Below are positions 2 through 34,492 of a stretch of DNA of 50,864 nucleotides, one piece after another (the stretch's first letter is position 1; every line of letters begins with the position of its first letter). The notes beneath the pieces are model-generated. The model worked only from the letters and a program-made list of their open reading frames with translations, had not been told where the DNA came from and searched no databases. The stretch is from Terriglobia bacterium (lineage in GTDB: Bacteria > Acidobacteriota > Terriglobia > Bryobacterales > Bryobacteraceae), in NCBI GenBank assembly GCA_025350105.1, contig JANXYJ010000003.1, forward strand, positions 1-50,864. Direction: 5' to 3'. Made by a program: the position numbers and the translations under genes.

Positions 2-1201
2 AAAATTCTGCTGTGCCCGCCCGAAGGCGCCGACGCCGCGCGCAAAGCAGCCGCAGGCAAAAACGTTCCCACCTATACATTGGAAATGGACGCGACGGGT
101 GTGGTGACCATCAAAGATGTGGCCATCACCAAGCAGGCCGCGCTGCCCACCGGCGACGACACCGCGCTGGTGCTGCACACCAGCGGCAGCACAGGCCGCC
201 CCAAGCGCGTACCTATTCTGCACCGCAATATGACGGCCTCTACCAGCAACATTGTGGCGCATTATGATCTGACGCCGAAAGATGTTTCGCTCTGCGTGAT
301 GCCTCTGTTCCACGTGCATGGGCTGGTGGCGTCCACGCTTTCCACCTTGCAATCCGGCGGCACGGTGGCCATTCCCGCCAAGTTTAATCCGCTTTCTTTT
401 TGGCGCACCGTTCGTGATTCTGGCGCGACTTGGTATTCGGCCGTACCTACCATTCACAGCCTGTTGTTGCAACGCGCAACCGAGAGACCCGCCGGCTGCG
501 AAGGCTTGCGTTTCATCCGTTCGTGCAGCGCGGCATTGCCTCCAGAGATGATGGCGCGGATGGAAGAACTGTTTGGCGCTCCGGTGCTGGAAGCCTATGG
601 CATGACCGAAGCTTCGCATCAGATGAGCTCCAATCCCAAGCCGCCGCACGCGCGCAAACCCGGTTCAGTTGGTCCCGGCACCGGCGTGAAGATTGGCATC
701 CTGGATGACGTCGGCAACGTGCTGGCTGCGGGCGAGCGCGGCGAGGTTTGCATTCAGGGCCCCAACGTGGTTTCGGGTTACGAAAACAATCCGGAAGCCA
801 ATGAGAAGTCTTTCACCAACGGTTGGTTCCGCACCGGCGACCAGGGCTTCTTGGACGCCGACGGCTATCTCACGCTCACCGGGCGCTTGAAGGAATTGAT
901 CAATCGCGGCGGTGAAAAAATCGGCCCGCGCGAAATCGACGAAGTTTTGCTGGCGCATCCCAATGTGGCGGAAGCGGTTGCGTTTGGTGTGCCGCATCCC
1001 ATGTGGGGAGAAGAAGTGGCTGCCGCCATTGTCTTGAAAGATGCCAAGGAGCCCACGCCCGAAGCCGCCATTCTCGCCTTCTGCAAAGAACGTCTGGCCG
1101 ATTTCAAAATGCCCAAGAAGCTATATGTGGTGGATACCATTCCGCGCACGGCAACCGGCAAGATCCAGCGCGGCGCGGTGGCGAAGGCGCTGGCGGGCTG
1201 A
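2..1201 (+). CDS. Acyl-CoA synthetase, oxalate-CoA ligase type (5' partial)
   Basis: ANL-superfamily AMP-forming CoA ligase whose 5' end lies before the window; the frame is open from base 2, so the ATG at 80 is internal. The ATP-binding loop TSGSTGRPK is at 179-205, followed by the core motif YGMTEAS, the hinge region GWFRTGDQGFLDADGY and the C-terminal ATGKIQRG whose catalytic Lys codon is 1160-1162. The stretch around VMPLFHVHGL and TWYSAVPTIH closely resembles, from memory, the Pcs60/AAE3 oxalyl-CoA synthetases rather than fatty-acid ligases. The next genes on the same strand are a PanE-like reductase, an oxalate-type transporter and malate synthase, which supports oxalate (less likely another small dicarboxylate or malonate) as substrate. 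Ligase class is certain; oxalate specificity is inference. Confidence 0.85.
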   Translation, partial: KILLCPPEGADAARKAAAGKNVPTYTLEMDATGVVTIKDVAITKQAALPTGDDTALVLHTSGSTGRPKRVPILHRNMTASTSNIVAHYDLTPKDVSLCVMPLFHVHGLVASTLSTLQSGGTVAIPAKFNPLSFWRTVRDSGATWYSAVPTIHSLLLQRATERPAGCEGLRFIRSCSAALPPEMMARMEELFGAPVLEAYGMTEASHQMSSNPKPPHARKPGSVGPGTGVKIGILDDVGNVLAAGERGEVCIQGPNVVSGYENNPEANEKSFTNGWFRTGDQGFLDADGYLTLTGRLKELINRGGEKIGPREIDEVLLAHPNVAEAVAFGVPHPMWGEEVAAAIVLKDAKEPTPEAAILAFCKERLADFKMPKKLYVVDTIPRTATGKIQRGAVAKALAG

Positions 1202-1248
1202 GCCTATTGAAGGCGGATTTAAGAAGGTGGATTAAAAATATAGCACCC

Positions 1249-1269
1249 AGCCGCGACCGTAAGGGAGCG
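1249..1269 (+). repeat. Interspersed 21-bp repeat, copy 1
   Basis: Begins AGCCGCGACCGTAAGG and lies in the 100-bp gap between the ligase and the PanE-like gene. An exact reverse-complement copy is at 34472-34492, also intergenic. It behaves like a dispersed REP-type sequence rather than a regulatory site of this operon. Confidence 0.6.
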
Positions 1270-1301
1270 CCGCTTTTCAACGGTTTTACAAAAACATCAC
1301 G

Positions 1302-2279
1302 ATGAAATTCTTAATCGCAGGTGCGGGAGCCATCGGCGGATATCTGGGCGCCCGTTTGGCGAAAGCCGGTGAGGACGTTACCCTGTTCGCGCGCGGGCCG
1401 CATTTGAAAGCCATGCAGGAACGCGGCTTGCAGGTATTGAGTGAAGAAGGTGACTTCACCGTCCGTCCGAATGTCATTGGCGATCTCCAAGAAGTCCAGC
1501 ACGCCGATGTCATCTTCCTTGGCGTAAAAGCCCATGGCCTCACCCAACTGGCGCCGCAGTTGACCCATTTGATTGGCGATCACACCACAGTGGTGAGCAC
1601 GCAGAACGGAATTCCATGGTGGTATTTTCAGAAGTTTTCAGGCTTGCAAGCAGACGAATTCACCGGTCTCCACCTGGAACGCGTTGATCCCGGTGGCGCC
1701 ATCGCCGCGGCGATTCCAGCGGACCGAGTGCTGGCCTCCATCGCCTATTTCGCCACGGAAATCGCCGAGCCCGGCGTGATCCGTCACCACGAGGGCAACC
1801 GGCTTTCGCTGGGCGAACCGGACGGAACGCGGTCGGATCGAGCGAAAGCGATTTCAGATGCGCTGATCAAAGCCGGCATACGTGCACCCGTCACCCAAAA
1901 AATCCGTACCGAAATTTGGGTGAAAATTCTGGGCAATGTGGCGTTCAATCCCATCAGCGCACTGACGCACGCGACGCTCGTAAAAATGGCGCGTGATACC
2001 GAGGTCGGCCCCGTGGTCCGCCAGATCATGATGGAAGTGGAAGCGGTGGCCGCCAAAATGGGCATCACCATGCCGATCTCCCTTGACCAGCGCATCGAAG
2101 GCGCCGCGAAAGTGGGCGAGCACAAAACCTCCATGCTGCAGGATTTGGAGGCCGGCCGGCCCATGGAACTGGAAGCGGTGGTGGGCGCGGTGGTGGAGTT
2201 GGGCGAACGCATGGGTGTGCCCATGCCGCATACGCGAACGGTATATGCTTGTACGAGACTTTTAGGCTTGGGTTCGTAG
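1302..2279 (+). CDS. PanE-like 2-dehydropantoate 2-reductase family; candidate oxalyl-CoA reductase
   Basis: 325 aa, normal length for ketopantoate reductases. The N-terminal Rossmann fold shows GAGAIGGY (residues 7-14) and QNG at 101-103; the C-terminal helical domain carries the catalytic Lys in WVKILGN (K208), Asn at 212, and the substrate-binding SMLQDLEAGRPMELE stretch (277-291). The family reduces 2-oxo acids with NADPH. A PanE paralogue (PanE2) of Methylobacterium extorquens was described as an oxalyl-CoA reductase making glyoxylate; this gene sits between a likely oxalyl-CoA ligase and a likely oxalate carrier, with malate synthase downstream, so I favour that role over pantothenate synthesis. 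Ends 21 nt before the transporter. Family certain, reaction inferred from context. Confidence 0.85.
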   Translation: MKFLIAGAGAIGGYLGARLAKAGEDVTLFARGPHLKAMQERGLQVLSEEGDFTVRPNVIGDLQEVQHADVIFLGVKAHGLTQLAPQLTHLIGDHTTVVSTQNGIPWWYFQKFSGLQADEFTGLHLERVDPGGAIAAAIPADRVLASIAYFATEIAEPGVIRHHEGNRLSLGEPDGTRSDRAKAISDALIKAGIRAPVTQKIRTEIWVKILGNVAFNPISALTHATLVKMARDTEVGPVVRQIMMEVEAVAAKMGITMPISLDQRIEGAAKVGEHKTSMLQDLEAGRPMELEAVVGAVVELGERMGVPMPHTRTVYACTRLLGLGS

Positions 2280-2300
2280 AACAGTTTTTGGAGGACAAAA

Positions 2301-3566
2301 GTGAGTCGCTGGGTTCGTCTAATCGCCGCGGTCGTCTCGATGATCATGATCGCGAATTTGCAATACGCCTGGACGCTGTTCGTCAAACCGCTGATCGCCG
2401 ATCATCATTGGAAACTGCGCGATGTGCAATTCGCATTTTCTATTTTCGTTGCCTGCCAAACCTGGTTCATGCCGGCCGCCGGTTGGGTGATGGATCGCAT
2501 TGGGCCGCGCGTGTTCATGACGGTGGCCGGCGTGATTTGCGGCATCGGCTGGGCTGCGCTGGGTCAGGCGGCAAGCTTGCCCATGCTGTATGCTTTCTAC
2601 GCCGCAGCGGGCATTGGCGCGGTACTGGTCTATTGCGGTTCTATGGGCGTAGCACTGAAATGGTTTCCCGATAGGCGTGGACTGGCGGCCGGTATCACCG
2701 CGGCGGCGTTCGGCTCCGGCACCGCGCTGTTCATTCCCTTCATCGCCCGCTATTTGAAGGCCACCGGCTATAGCAACACATTTCTCTACATGGGCATAGC
2801 GCAGGGGCTGGTCATCATCCTGGCCGCGCAGTTCTTGCGTAATCCCGACCCGGCGGAAGTCACCGCCTTGGCGAATGCTGCCGTGGGAACGGCGAAGCCC
2901 AAGGTCCGCAGCCACGGGGACAATTTCACCTCAGCCCAGATGATGGGTACCACGCACTTCTACCTTCTGTATTTGATGATGCTGATGATGGGCATCGGCG
3001 GTTTGATGGTGACCGCGAATTTGGTGCTGATGGCGGATTCCTTCAAGATCAGCGCGACGGCGCTCACCATTGCGCTCTCCATGAATCCGATTGCCAACGG
3101 CGCTTCGCGTCTGTTTTGGGGCTGGGTTTCCGATCGCATGGGCCGCGAACAAACCATGGTCACCGCGTTTCTGATTCAAGCGCTGGCGCTGGTGAGCGTT
3201 CCGCTGCTGGCCCATGGTTCCGACACCGCCTTTATTTCTTGCCTGGCTATGGTGTACTTCAGTTGGGGCGAAATCTATTCCCTGTTTCCTTCGCTTTCCG
3301 CGGATATATTCGGCACGCGCTACGCCAGCACCAACTATGGTTTTCTGTACAGCACCAAGGGCGTGGCCGCAATCTTTGGCGGCGGATTGGCTGCCATGTT
3401 GTTTGAAAAAATCGGCACTTGGGACGTGGCCTTTTATGGAAGTTCCGTGCTGGCGGTGATCTCGGCGTTGCTGGCGGTTGTGGTCATCAAGATGCCGTTA
3501 CCCCGTAAAGACCCGGCGGCGAATTTAGTCGCGCGCGCGGCGGAAGAATTATCAGCGAGAGGATAA
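2301..3566 (+). CDS. oxlT: MFS transporter, oxalate/formate antiporter (OxlT) type
   Basis: 421-aa, twelve-helix major facilitator protein starting with GTG; GGAGG at 2290-2294 sets the start. The N-terminus ([18 protein letters not shown]) is typical of the OxlT family. Oxalobacter OxlT binds oxalate through Arg272 and Lys355; here an Arg in [10 protein letters not shown] (R270) and a Lys in FLYSTKGV (K353) lie in the matching helices with the same 83-residue separation. That makes oxalate or a similar small dicarboxylate the likely substrate. Stop is 4 nt before malate synthase, so the two are probably co-translated. Whether it exchanges formate is not visible; no oxalyl-CoA decarboxylase is present in the window. 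Confidence 0.87.
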
Positions 3567-3570
3567 TCAA

Positions 3571-5166
3571 ATGGCCACTGGTACGCAAACATCACCGCAA
3601 ACATCATCCATGACGGAATTGCAAATTAACGCTCCTGTAAGCGCCGCGCAAGCGGAGATTTTGACGCCCGAAGCCCGCCGCTTTGTGGCCAAGCTGGCTT
3701 CCGCATTTGACGCCCGGCGTTTGGATCTTCTGGCTCGCCGCCAGGTGCGCCAGGTGCAATTAGACGCCGGGCATTTTCCAGACTTTCTTCCTGAAACCGC
3801 CGGCATTCGCGCCAAAGAATGGACTGTGGCGCCGATCCCCGCCGACCTTATTGATCGCCGCGTGGAGATCACCGGACCCGTCGATCGCAAGATGGTGATC
3901 AACGCGCTGAACTCCGGCGCGAATGTTTTCATGGCGGATTTTGAGGATTCAAACGCGCCCACTTGGAACAATAATCTGGACGGCCAGATCAACCTGCGCG
4001 ACGCCGTGCGCCGCAGCATCGAATACAAAAGCCCGGAAGGCAAGCAGTACAAACTGAATGAGAAGATCGCCACGCTGCTGGTGCGCCCGCGTGGTTGGCA
4101 TTTAAATGAGAAACACGTTCAATTGGGCGGCCGTCCGGTTTCCGGATCGCTCTTCGATTTCGGTTTGTATTTTTTTCACAATGCCAAGCAACTGATGGCC
4201 AACGGGTCAGGGCCATATTTTTATCTTCCGAAGATGGAAAGCCATTTGGAAGCGCGTTTGTGGAACGACGTTTTCAATTTGGCGCAAGACGAATTAGGTT
4301 TTCCGCGAGGCACCATTCGAGCCACGGTGCTGATCGAAACCATTCTGGCTTCGTTTGAAATGGACGAGATCTTATACGAGTTGCGCGATCACTCTGCGGG
4401 ACTGAACTGCGGGCGCTGGGACTACATCTTCAGCTTTATCAAGAAATTCCGCAGTCATCCCAGCTTCGTTTTGCCGAATCGTTCGGAAGTGACCATGGAT
4501 CGGCACTTTTTGAAATCTTATGTTGAGCTGCTGATTCAAACCTGTCACCGGCGCGGCATTCATGCCATGGGCGGCATGGCGGCGCAGGTGCCCATCAAGA
4601 ACGATCCGGTGGCGAATGAACAGGCGCTTGAAAAAGTCCGGCAAGATAAACTGCGTGAAGTGCGCGCCGGGCACGACGGAACCTGGGTGGCGCATCCGGG
4701 ATTGGTGCCCATCGCCAAAGATATTTTTGATGCGCACATGCCCACGCCCAATCAAATTGCGAAGCCGCGCGCGGACGTCAAAATTTCAGCCAAGGATCTG
4801 TTGGACGTCCCCAGCGGCACCGTGACCGAAGCCGGCCTGCGCTGGAATATTGATGTGGGATTGCAATACCTGGAAGCATGGCTGCGCGGCGTGGGCTGCG
4901 TGCCGATCTACAATCTGATGGAAGATGCCGCCACCGCCGAAATTTGCCGCGCTCAAGTGTGGCAATGGGTGAAGTACGGAGCCAAGCTCGACGACGGCCG
5001 CATGGTGACCGCGCAAATGGTGAACCAGGTTGTGGACGAGCAGTTGATCAAGGCCGATCACCAAACCGCGGCTTTCGCCAACGCGGCGAAAATCTTCCGC
5101 GAAATGATGACCAGCGGCGATTTCCAGGACTTTTTGACCTTGCCGGCGTACAACTTTATTGACTAA
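3571..5166 (+). CDS. aceB: Malate synthase A
   Basis: 531 aa, the usual length of the A isoform. Condenses glyoxylate with acetyl-CoA to malate in the cytosol. Visible motifs are [13 protein letters not shown] (120-132), [15 protein letters not shown] (221-235), the conserved RATVLIET (250-257) and the PROSITE-type signature [16 protein letters not shown] (272-287). GAGAGG just upstream supports the start; a second ATG at codon 14 is less well placed. No isocitrate lyase gene is adjacent, so the glyoxylate is probably supplied by another route; the upstream ligase, reductase and transporter suggest oxalate. Confidence 0.96.
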
Positions 5167-9685: not shown

Positions 9686-10927
9686 ATGCAATTCAGCATG
9701 AAGAACCTGGATCAGCTCAGCTTGGGCGAGATGGAAGAACTGCTCAACAGCAGTCGAAAAGTGACATGGAAAACAGAAAGCAACGAGGACAAGTACACTC
9801 TGATGGCGTCGGTCCTAAAGGCCCAGCAATACGCCAAACTGGGCAAGCGGGAAAAAGGAGTGGTGCGGCGGTTCCTCCAGAAAGTGACATCCACCAGCCG
9901 GGCGCAATTGACACGGCTGATCGGCCAGTGGATGGAGGATAGCAAGATCGTCCGCAGGACAGTCGCGCGTCCACGTTTCGCATCGAGATACACCAGAGCG
10001 GACGTGGTCCTGCTGGCGGCCACCGATGCCGCCCACGAGGATTTGTCCGGCCCTGCGCTACGCCACATTCTGCGCCGCGAGTGGGAGGTATTCGGCCAGC
10101 AACAGTACAAACGCCTGGCCAGGATCTCGGTGTCGCACTTGTACAACCTGCGCAAGAGCGCAGTCTATCGCAGCCAACGAGTGCGAGTGAATCACACCCA
10201 AAGCCGGCAAATCGCCATCGGCGAACGCCGCAGGCCGGACCCCAAAGGCAAGCCGGGATTCCTCCGTGTAGACACCGTTCATCAAGGTCAAAAGGACGGC
10301 AAACCAGGCGTCTACTACATCAACTCAGTAGATACCGTAACGCAGTGGCAGAACATCGGATGCGTGGAAACCATCAGCGAAATGCACATGATTCCCGTTC
10401 TGGAAGCGATCTTGCACCAGTATCCATTCCAGATCATAGGCTTTCACTGCGACAACGGCAGCGAGTTTCTGAACTACCAAGTAGCCAAGATGCTCGGCAA
10501 GCTCCTGGTGGAGTTCACCAAGTCACGGGCTTACAAAACCACGGACAATGCGTTGGTGGAAGGCAAGAACGGAGCGGTCGTCCGCAAGCATATCGGCTAT
10601 GGCTTTATCGCTTCCGAACACGCCGAGGCGCTGCAGAAATTCTTCACCGCGCAGTTCAACCCCTACTTGAACTTTCATCGTCCCTGCGGTTTTGCCGTTC
10701 TGGCCAAAGGAGCGCGCGGCCGTATCAAGCGCCGCTATCCGGCCGACGACTATCGCACACCGTTCGAAAAACTGTGCTCACTGGAGAACTGGCAGCAATA
10801 CCTCAAACCCGGAACCACCGAGGAGTTGCTTCGCACCCAAGCCCTGCAACGCAGCGACACAGAGGCGGCCAAGCAGATGCAGAAGGCCAAGCTCGGCATT
10901 CTCAAGCGCGTCCGACTCGAAGTCTAA
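9686..10927 (+). CDS. DDE (rve-type) transposase
   Basis: 413 aa. The first ~180 residues are a helical DNA-binding region (for example SRAQLTRLIGQWMED and ARISVSHLYNLRK); the catalytic RNase H-like core follows with D196 in RVDTVHQG, D256 in HCDNGSEFLN and E292 in NALVEGKNG, a complete DDE triad. The gene is intact and lies between the repeat clusters. It resembles integrase-core transposases of the IS481-like group, but I do not assign a family. An alternative start at 9701 would remove only five residues. Confidence 0.93.
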   Translation: MQFSMKNLDQLSLGEMEELLNSSRKVTWKTESNEDKYTLMASVLKAQQYAKLGKREKGVVRRFLQKVTSTSRAQLTRLIGQWMEDSKIVRRTVARPRFASRYTRADVVLLAATDAAHEDLSGPALRHILRREWEVFGQQQYKRLARISVSHLYNLRKSAVYRSQRVRVNHTQSRQIAIGERRRPDPKGKPGFLRVDTVHQGQKDGKPGVYYINSVDTVTQWQNIGCVETISEMHMIPVLEAILHQYPFQIIGFHCDNGSEFLNYQVAKMLGKLLVEFTKSRAYKTTDNALVEGKNGAVVRKHIGYGFIASEHAEALQKFFTAQFNPYLNFHRPCGFAVLAKGARGRIKRRYPADDYRTPFEKLCSLENWQQYLKPGTTEELLRTQALQRSDTEAAKQMQKAKLGILKRVRLEV

Positions 10928-34471: not shown

Positions 34472-34492
34472 CGCTCCCTTACGGTCGCGGCT
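34472..34492 (-). repeat. Interspersed 21-bp repeat, copy 2
   Basis: Exact reverse complement of the sequence at 1249-1269, in the 178-bp gap between msrP and msrQ. Next to it GCCAGGTTCAA is repeated directly near 34434-34460. Confidence 0.6.

Follow-up and report, generated by a model that had tools for sequence, protein, structure and literature searches.

What supplies glyoxylate to a malate synthase whose gene closes a row of genes for the uptake and activation of oxalate? The question is raised by the start of a stretch of 50,864 nucleotides, hereafter the window, from a Terriglobia bacterium of the family Bryobacteraceae (GenBank assembly GCA_025350105.1, contig JANXYJ010000003.1). The window is an entire contig (C155) of a 4.74-Mb genome assembly, which is 96.5% complete and divided into 206 contigs. 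Its first four genes encode a coenzyme A (CoA) ligase, a reductase of the PanE family, an OxlT-type carrier and malate synthase A, and the original prediction had read them as an operon for the reductive assimilation of oxalate. We consider a modified reading probable: judged from its sequence, the operon would import oxalate and make malate from it via glyoxylate, as an anaplerotic route in which oxalate replaces isocitrate as the glyoxylate donor. The enzymes are of known kinds; what is new is their wiring in one operon.

The operon and the proposed route

All four open reading frames were verified on one strand of the window (Table 1), and the positions, orientation and families originally given for them were borne out. 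The window opens inside the ligase gene, which is cut by the contig end. The last 30 bases of another contig, C200, are identical to bases 1-30 of the window, and this 30-mer occurs in the genome only at those two contig ends. Moreover, residues 10-117 of a full-length relative of the ligase match the end of C200, and its residues 109-506 match the window. Because the overlap joins C200 to the window, and an isocitrate-lyase homologue (aceA) lies ahead of the ligase on C200, the gene order is aceA-ligase-reductase-oxlT-aceB, with gaps of 39 (from the aceA end to the ligase start, on C200), 100, 21 and 4 bases. The four genes of the predicted operon are thus all present, but both the truncation of the ligase and the fifth gene, aceA, had been missed. 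The predicted 4-base gap between the carrier gene and aceB (3567-3570) holds if aceB starts at the ATG at 3571, which is preceded by a Shine-Dalgarno-like GAGAGG; a later start, at the ATG at 3610, is possible. The next two genes upstream of aceA on C200 have the opposite orientation, and the five genes of the operon are presumably co-transcribed.

Table 1. Position of the operon genes in the window and on contig C200, and of a repeat in the window.
Feature	Position	Strand	Remark
AMP-binding ligase, putative oxalate-CoA ligase (AAE3/Pcs60 type), C-terminal 399 residues	2-1201	+	open at window base 1
Reductase of the ApbA/PanE family, putative PanE2/ApbA2-type oxalyl-CoA reductase (CoA-acylating glyoxylate dehydrogenase)	1302-2279	+	ApbA and ApbA_C domains, tree
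OxlT-type carrier, oxalate/formate antiporter family	2301-3566	+	TIGR04259, match to OxlT 8hpj
Malate synthase A (aceB)	3571-5166	+	TIGR01344
Ligase, N-terminal 108 residues	contig C200, L075:2861-3184	co-directional with the window genes	outside the window
Isocitrate-lyase homologue (aceA)	contig C200, L075:1580-2821	co-directional with the ligase	413 codons, outside the window
19-base exact repeat, first copy	1251-1269	+	in the ligase-reductase gap
19-base exact repeat, second copy	34472-34490	-	

In the proposed route, oxalate would enter the cell through the OxlT-type carrier and be converted to oxalyl-CoA by the ligase, with CoA and ATP. The PanE2-type reductase would reduce oxalyl-CoA to glyoxylate with NADPH, and malate synthase A would condense glyoxylate with acetyl-CoA to malate, so that oxalate would take over from isocitrate as the glyoxylate donor of this enzyme. 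Regeneration of acetyl-CoA from malate releases two CO2. With two CO2 lost per acetyl-CoA regenerated, we calculate that oxalate alone would yield no net carbon and, once the ATP spent is deducted, little energy, which would make the route anaplerotic rather than a means of growth on oxalate. Acetyl-CoA would come from another substrate, and oxalate would top up the C4 acids (anaplerotic co-assimilation). The sequence half of the predicted chemistry stands, through the reductase tree and the ligase relatives described below; the word 'assimilation' is too strong, since malate synthase alone would give no net carbon.

Ligase, reductase and carrier

The ligase had been likened to Pcs60 and AAE3, and its closest characterised relatives are indeed oxalate-CoA ligases. 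Its best solved relatives (5ie0, 6qjz and 8aff, named oxalate-CoA ligase or oxalyl-CoA synthetase) scored 394-412.5 bits, well apart from malonyl-CoA synthetases, which reached at most 216.5 bits, about half as much. A full-length relative (L039) was also closest to oxalate-CoA ligases, with 418-445 bits. Each protein was moreover compared with its own relatives at the columns invariant among them (21 rows for the ligase, 20 each for the reductase and the carrier, and 33 for AceB), in sets of unequal diversity; the ligase departed at no column. Its closest solved relatives point to an oxalate-CoA ligase of the AAE3/Pcs60 type.

The reductase groups, as the original prediction required, with enzymes of Methylobacterium and Cupriavidus oxalate loci, away from ketopantoate-type reductases. 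A quick tree of 96 rows, with some long branches, was split (support 100, starred) into 13 ketopantoate-type rows, a label that for the 12 acidobacterial ones rests on family and divergence and not on function, and 83 rows that include the window protein. On the latter side were found a Cupriavidus copy (L079), which lies beside frc-oxc-like genes, and Methylobacterium copies (L076, L170 and L206), which adjoin a ligase and an OxlT-type carrier. Because the ketopantoate-type rows had been picked as distant ones, the telling point is the side on which the Cupriavidus and Methylobacterium copies fall. These copies, which match in identity or gene order, stand in for C. necator ApbA2 and M. extorquens PanE2, which are not themselves in the tree: the Methylobacterium and Cupriavidus reductases share 49.7-50.9% identity, close to the 51% printed for PanE2 and ApbA2 (PMC7486775). 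PanE2 is described as having served in vitro as an oxalyl-CoA reductase (PMC8411744).

The tree had been thinned by hand by 35 rows, ten of which have no oxalate neighbours (L059, L146, L149, L153, L156, L159, L198, L201, L202 and L203). Also left out were L165 (wrong-frame extraction) and L094 (short), as well as, earlier, L056, L060, L061 and L097 and all rows of fewer than 250 residues. The omitted rows were mostly close relatives of retained ones, some of them removed without such a check.

Residues follow the same division. The signature NG-x-P-W/Y-W was present in 114 of the 116 usable rows on the oxalate side (exceptions, L041 and L045) and in none of the 16 others. Among the 117 oxalate-side rows, a number that includes the wrong-frame L165, the E. 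coli Asn241 column holds His in 115, and Leu, Met or Ile is found at that of Asn194; Asn98, Lys176, Asn180, Ser244 and Glu256 (E. coli numbering) are retained in 115-116. The window reductase has the NGxPWW stretch, with His274 and Leu226 at the columns of E. coli N241 and N194, and so lacks both Asn residues looked for in a ketopantoate reductase, a weak distinction because Asn is not the prevailing residue at those columns in other acidobacterial PanE rows either. Its N102, K208, N212, S277 and E289 align with N98, K176, N180, S244 and E256 of E. coli PanE, which we take to be the residues that matter in ketopantoate reductase. It departs at two of the columns invariant in its relatives. Overall, the protein is predicted to be an oxalyl-CoA reductase of the PanE2/ApbA2 type, with NADPH as its presumed cofactor.

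Genes for NAD(P) transhydrogenase lie near the reductase in L077, L080, L081, L152 and L204 (Skermanella, Phyllobacterium, Azospirillum and two mycobacterial loci), and would suit an NADPH-consuming reduction of oxalyl-CoA. Reductase homologues of another family, f3 (L053, L055, L057, L058, L062 and L063), have no clear ligase nearby (only a 211-bit one at L053), and a neighbour of the L062 gene resembles NadC by eye; the role of these homologues may differ.

The carrier exceeds the cut-off of TIGR04259 (421.7 bits, cut-off 335), and its best solved relative is OxlT (8hpj, 275 bits). Its Arg270 and Lys353 had been noted for being spaced like Arg272 and Lys355 of OxlT; they are separated by 83 residues and fall in the same aligned columns. 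Compared at the substrate residues of OxlT, as given in PMC10070484, the carrier is identical at Gln34, Tyr35, Thr38, Tyr124, Asn268, Arg272, Trp324, Tyr328 and Lys355, with changes at Tyr150 (Phe), Trp352 (Tyr) and Gln63 (Val). Four of the six residues of the aromatic cage are therefore identical (Y35, Y124, W324 and Y328), the other two being the Phe and Tyr replacements of Y150 and W352. The carrier departs at six columns invariant in its relatives, the highest number of the 21 rows. Because it also just passes the model for L-lactate carriers (326 versus 320 bits), specificity for oxalate is likely only.

To follow these genes across genomes, we counted as bearing the cassette any genome that has this reductase at E 1e-75 or better, which applied to 25 of the 180 sampled genomes of the window's family; all such counts ignore shared ancestry. 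Neighbourhoods were mapped with a codon-scored map of open reading frames and tblastn. The ligase adjoins the reductase in all 25 bearing genomes, and the OxlT-type carrier is also in the cassette in 22 (two cassettes run off the contig, and G198 has no carrier). A scan of named genomes was limited to the best 80 of at least 591 reductase relatives, a few of these 80 being the same records as genomes of the family. Ligase and reductase genes were immediate neighbours in 47 of the 80, spanning seven phyla by record title. Of the 33 relatives without this adjacency, 16 carry frc, oxc, gcl or pntAB genes, or one for an OxlT-type carrier, in the stretch. Among 15 control loci of the ketopantoate type from Acidobacteria, none had a ligase of at least 300 bits and one had a match of 225 bits; nine other loci in the same comparison, whose flanks were mostly about 1.5 kb long, gave no ligase hit. 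The adjacency of ligase and reductase in all 25 bearing genomes is more than chance.

A gene of the gamma-glutamyltransferase family lies directly upstream of the ligase in four acidobacterial loci (L033 2-298, L045 11959-13605, L051 6314-7900 and L060 26-1660), and a Chloroflexota locus (L141, from 10043) has one downstream of the reductase; TIGR00066 was over its cut-off in both of those scanned. The encoded enzyme might be an amidase that sets oxalate free from an amide. HpxW (oxamate amidohydrolase), which we take 5hft to be, was tried as a match, and the 105.7 bits obtained compare with 249.7 to a gamma-glutamyltranspeptidase. In L097 (from 3355; contig C116 of G132), a single open frame matches a brief segment of the reductase as well as part of the carrier, as if a second copy of the cassette had left a fused remnant.

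Isocitrate-lyase homologue, malate synthase and the fate of glyoxylate

AceA passes the family models of isocitrate lyase (NF011645, 629 bits, cut-off 562; TIGR01346, 477.7 bits, cut-off 275.9). Its loop reads KRG----RGAAV, as against KKCGH(M/L)GGKV in solved isocitrate lyases and in those of the order, and NCSPSF is changed to NAPPSF. The Cys of the KKCGH loop is the catalytic residue of isocitrate lyase. Isocitrate lyases of this type (E 1e-60 or better) were found in 20 of 257 genomes of the order, 19 besides the window's own. Eighteen of the 19 were compared residue by residue (L255, with an internal TGA, was left out, and L254 is truncated), and all 18 retain the loop. At columns invariant in the 18 others, AceA departs 27 times, the most of the 19 rows, followed by 15 (the truncated row) and 11. 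The same degenerate form was found neither in the 23 genomes of the genus, of which only G149 has another isocitrate lyase, a canonical one, nor in the 257 genomes of the order, and the window's genome, at the completeness of its assembly, yielded no further isocitrate lyase.

A frameshift was considered as the cause of the loop change and rejected, as the other two frames give no KKCGH in the assembled sequence. Since the frame is open and codon-like, AceA looks less like a recent pseudogene than like an enzyme that has degenerated or been repurposed. It is probably unable to cleave isocitrate, and because its loop is lost, oxalate would have replaced isocitrate as the source of glyoxylate. 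Sixteen other isocitrate-lyase loci were inspected; in 11 of them aceB lies beside aceA on the opposite strand, unlike in this operon.

The malate synthase of the operon scored 828.1 bits against TIGR01344 (cut-off 594.5), which identifies it as malate synthase A, and departs at none of the columns invariant in its 33 relatives. In a quick tree of 35 rows with a weak backbone, the operon-linked aceB genes (window, L031, L041 and L042) group in a starred clade of their own, separate from eight other malate synthases of the genus. Malate synthase A was over its cut-off in 23 of the 25 bearing genomes versus 64 of the 155 others of the family (Fisher p = 1.4e-6, kinship ignored), and isocitrate lyase in 7 of 25, the window's degenerate one counted, versus 9 of 155. 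Eighteen bearing genomes thus have no isocitrate lyase over the cut-off, and 16 of the 25 (16 of the 23 with malate synthase A) have malate synthase A without it. In the family as a whole, with partial hits counted, this combination occurs in 75 of the 180 sampled genomes, the remaining 59 being non-bearing ones.

Among individual loci, those of two near sister genomes (L042 and L043) form a natural with/without pair, in which aceB is present between the carrier gene and a folC-like gene in one only. In G162, aceB is near the cassette on the other strand, and at an acidobacterial locus (L131), a distant malate-synthase homologue (32% identity) lies 1.5 kb upstream of the ligase.

As regards other sinks for oxalyl-CoA and glyoxylate, neither oxalyl-CoA decarboxylase (Oxc) nor glyoxylate carboligase (Gcl) was over its cut-off in any of 200 genomes of the order, the window's own included, with up to six candidates scored per genome. 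Each search was passed by one of 14 control genomes, and the best hits below the cut-off were 337 of 739 bits for Oxc (G132) and 523 of 711 bits for Gcl (G122, a non-bearing genome). With no Oxc over the cut-off, the order's genomes do not fit classical oxalotrophy by Frc and Oxc. The result for Oxc and Gcl and the lost catalytic loop of AceA both strengthen the earlier proposal that malate synthase is the sink for glyoxylate.

Rival readings and known systems

Several findings weigh against the route from oxalate to malate. No NCBIfam model of a ligase reaches its cut-off on the truncated ligase (the best, of FadD7 type, scored 436.7 of 650 bits), and none of the NCBIfam hits shown for it is for oxalate-CoA ligase activity. 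Among the best 80 reductase relatives, 17 have neither an adjacent ligase nor another of the searched oxalate genes, although in three of the 17 a ligase lies no more than 5 kb away, and in one (L168, a Chloroflexi contig) a malate-synthase gene follows downstream of the reductase at a distance of 0.9 kb. Two bearing genomes, G186 and G041 (the sister of G093), have no detected malate synthase A. Promoter and terminator scans gave nothing clearly above chance, and no promoter could be recognised. The join of C200 to the window and the AceA loop rest on one assembly, and because this assembly is incomplete, it may lack a canonical isocitrate lyase. To these are added the NCBIfam label of the reductase, the rarity of aceB beside the cassette and the scope of the sink search, each of which bears on a rival reading.

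The probabilities of these rival readings overlap. We regard as very improbable a reading in which the reductase acts as a ketopantoate reductase within an operon that is an unrelated mixture: the NCBIfam label is indeed 2-dehydropantoate 2-reductase (412 bits, cut-off 223), the E. coli active-site Asn, Lys, Ser and Glu are retained, and no other PanE domain in the window's genome is strong (at most 28 bits), so that the enzyme could also serve pantothenate synthesis; but the tree position, the residue signature and the ligase adjoining it in every bearing genome argue otherwise. Moreover, 13 of the 23 genomes of the genus have no PanE-domain hit above 80 bits, such hits occurring only in nine cassette-bearing genomes and G106; some weak hit above the Pfam cut-off of 22.2 bits is found in all 23. 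A module that only removes oxalate, glyoxylate passing to glycine or glycolate and aceB being incidental, also seems unlikely. It would fit the finding that aceB directly follows the carrier gene in only 4 of the 25 bearing genomes, all of this genus, and the scope of the sink search, which covered Oxc and Gcl; aminotransferases, glyoxylate reductases and the beta-hydroxyaspartate cycle would be other possible sinks. Many genomes also show matches of Oxc- or Gcl-related enzymes below the cut-off. The separate clade of operon-linked aceB genes and the strong enrichment of malate synthase A in bearing genomes speak against detoxification.

There is a small chance that AceA is still active and that the locus is a glyoxylate-shunt operon also holding an oxalate module, a reading compatible with the oxalate route. 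AceA has an open frame of 413 codons and exceeds both family cut-offs, but the alteration of its loop has eliminated the Cys and His needed for catalysis, NCSPSF is replaced by NAPPSF, its 27 changed columns are the most of any row compared, and the usual arrangement at other isocitrate-lyase loci is one with aceB on the opposite strand. Improbable, too, is the reverse direction, in which glyoxylate from isocitrate lyase would be converted via oxalyl-CoA to oxalate and exported by the carrier. That aceA heads the operon agrees with such secretion, as do the reversibility ascribed to the ApbA2 reaction in a study of Cupriavidus necator (PMC7486775) and the description of Pseudomonas fluorescens, which under aluminium makes oxalate via isocitrate lyase and an acylating glyoxylate dehydrogenase (PMC2752808). 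A working isocitrate lyase would be required, however, and the lost loop of AceA, together with the 18 bearing genomes without isocitrate lyase over the cut-off, argues for little glyoxylate from isocitrate. In addition, ATP-dependent CoA ligases normally run toward the thioester, and the operon's own malate synthase would compete for glyoxylate.

The import of oxalate and its conversion to malate, which we prefer, can be compared with several known systems. Schneider et al. reportedly described in 2012 a reductive assimilation of oxalate in Methylobacterium extorquens AM1 via oxalyl-CoA synthetase and PanE2; Methylobacterium also uses Oxc and Frc for energy, and its glyoxylate goes to the serine cycle. 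The window's reductase would likewise be of the PanE2 type and convert oxalyl-CoA to glyoxylate, and three other Methylobacterium loci hold carrier, reductase and ligase together; unlike there, no Oxc or Gcl is over the cut-off here, and the operon ends in malate synthase. The reductase also falls on the same side of the tree as C. necator ApbA2, judged by the Cupriavidus campinensis copy. Deletion of ApbA2 slowed growth of C. necator on oxalate, and the same study describes assimilation by the glycerate pathway, a malate cycle for glyoxylate, and no growth on oxalate without frc-oxc (PMC7486775). The Acidobacteria studied here differ from C. necator in having the ligase and no Oxc or Gcl over the cut-off. 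The ligase resembles the AAE3/Pcs60 oxalate-CoA ligases of plants and yeast, its closest solved relatives; in plants, oxalyl-CoA decarboxylase is described as acting after an AAE3-type ligase (PMC8004701), whereas here a reductase stands in its place. With the glyoxylate shunt the operon shares both gene families, aceA and aceB, which flank the oxalate module; it differs in that AceA has lost its catalytic loop and three oxalate genes lie between the two. In the literature searched, whose coverage was partial, we found no description of an aceA-ligase-reductase-oxlT-aceB operon.

Oxalate is abundant in soil. If the route operates as proposed, it would be a compact module for oxalate-dependent C4 synthesis and a candidate source of glyoxylate for malate synthase in the 16 bearing genomes without isocitrate lyase, while the 59 non-bearing genomes would need another source. 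We give about even weight to a broader proposal, an 'oxalate bypass', in which environmental oxalate replaced isocitrate by means of an oxalate module set between a loop-less aceA and an intact aceB. Given the 16 of 23 bearing genomes with malate synthase A that lack isocitrate lyase over the cut-off, oxalate-fed malate synthesis might then be widespread among soil Acidobacteria as an anaplerotic route, invisible to oxc surveys. One survey reaches Acidobacteria through oxc sequences, and its main text does not contain the words 'synthetase', 'reductase' or 'glyoxylate' (PMC10192776). As the bearing genomes have no oxc over the cut-off, they would be missed by this marker.

Two minor features of the window were also recorded. 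The 19-base repeat, one copy of which lies between the ligase and reductase genes, occurred twice in the window and in none of 100 shuffles; it is probably unrelated to the function of the operon, and possibly a member of a dispersed repeat family. Downstream of the operon, an open reading frame of 413 amino acids (9686-10927, + strand) resembles an integrase-core transposase by eye.

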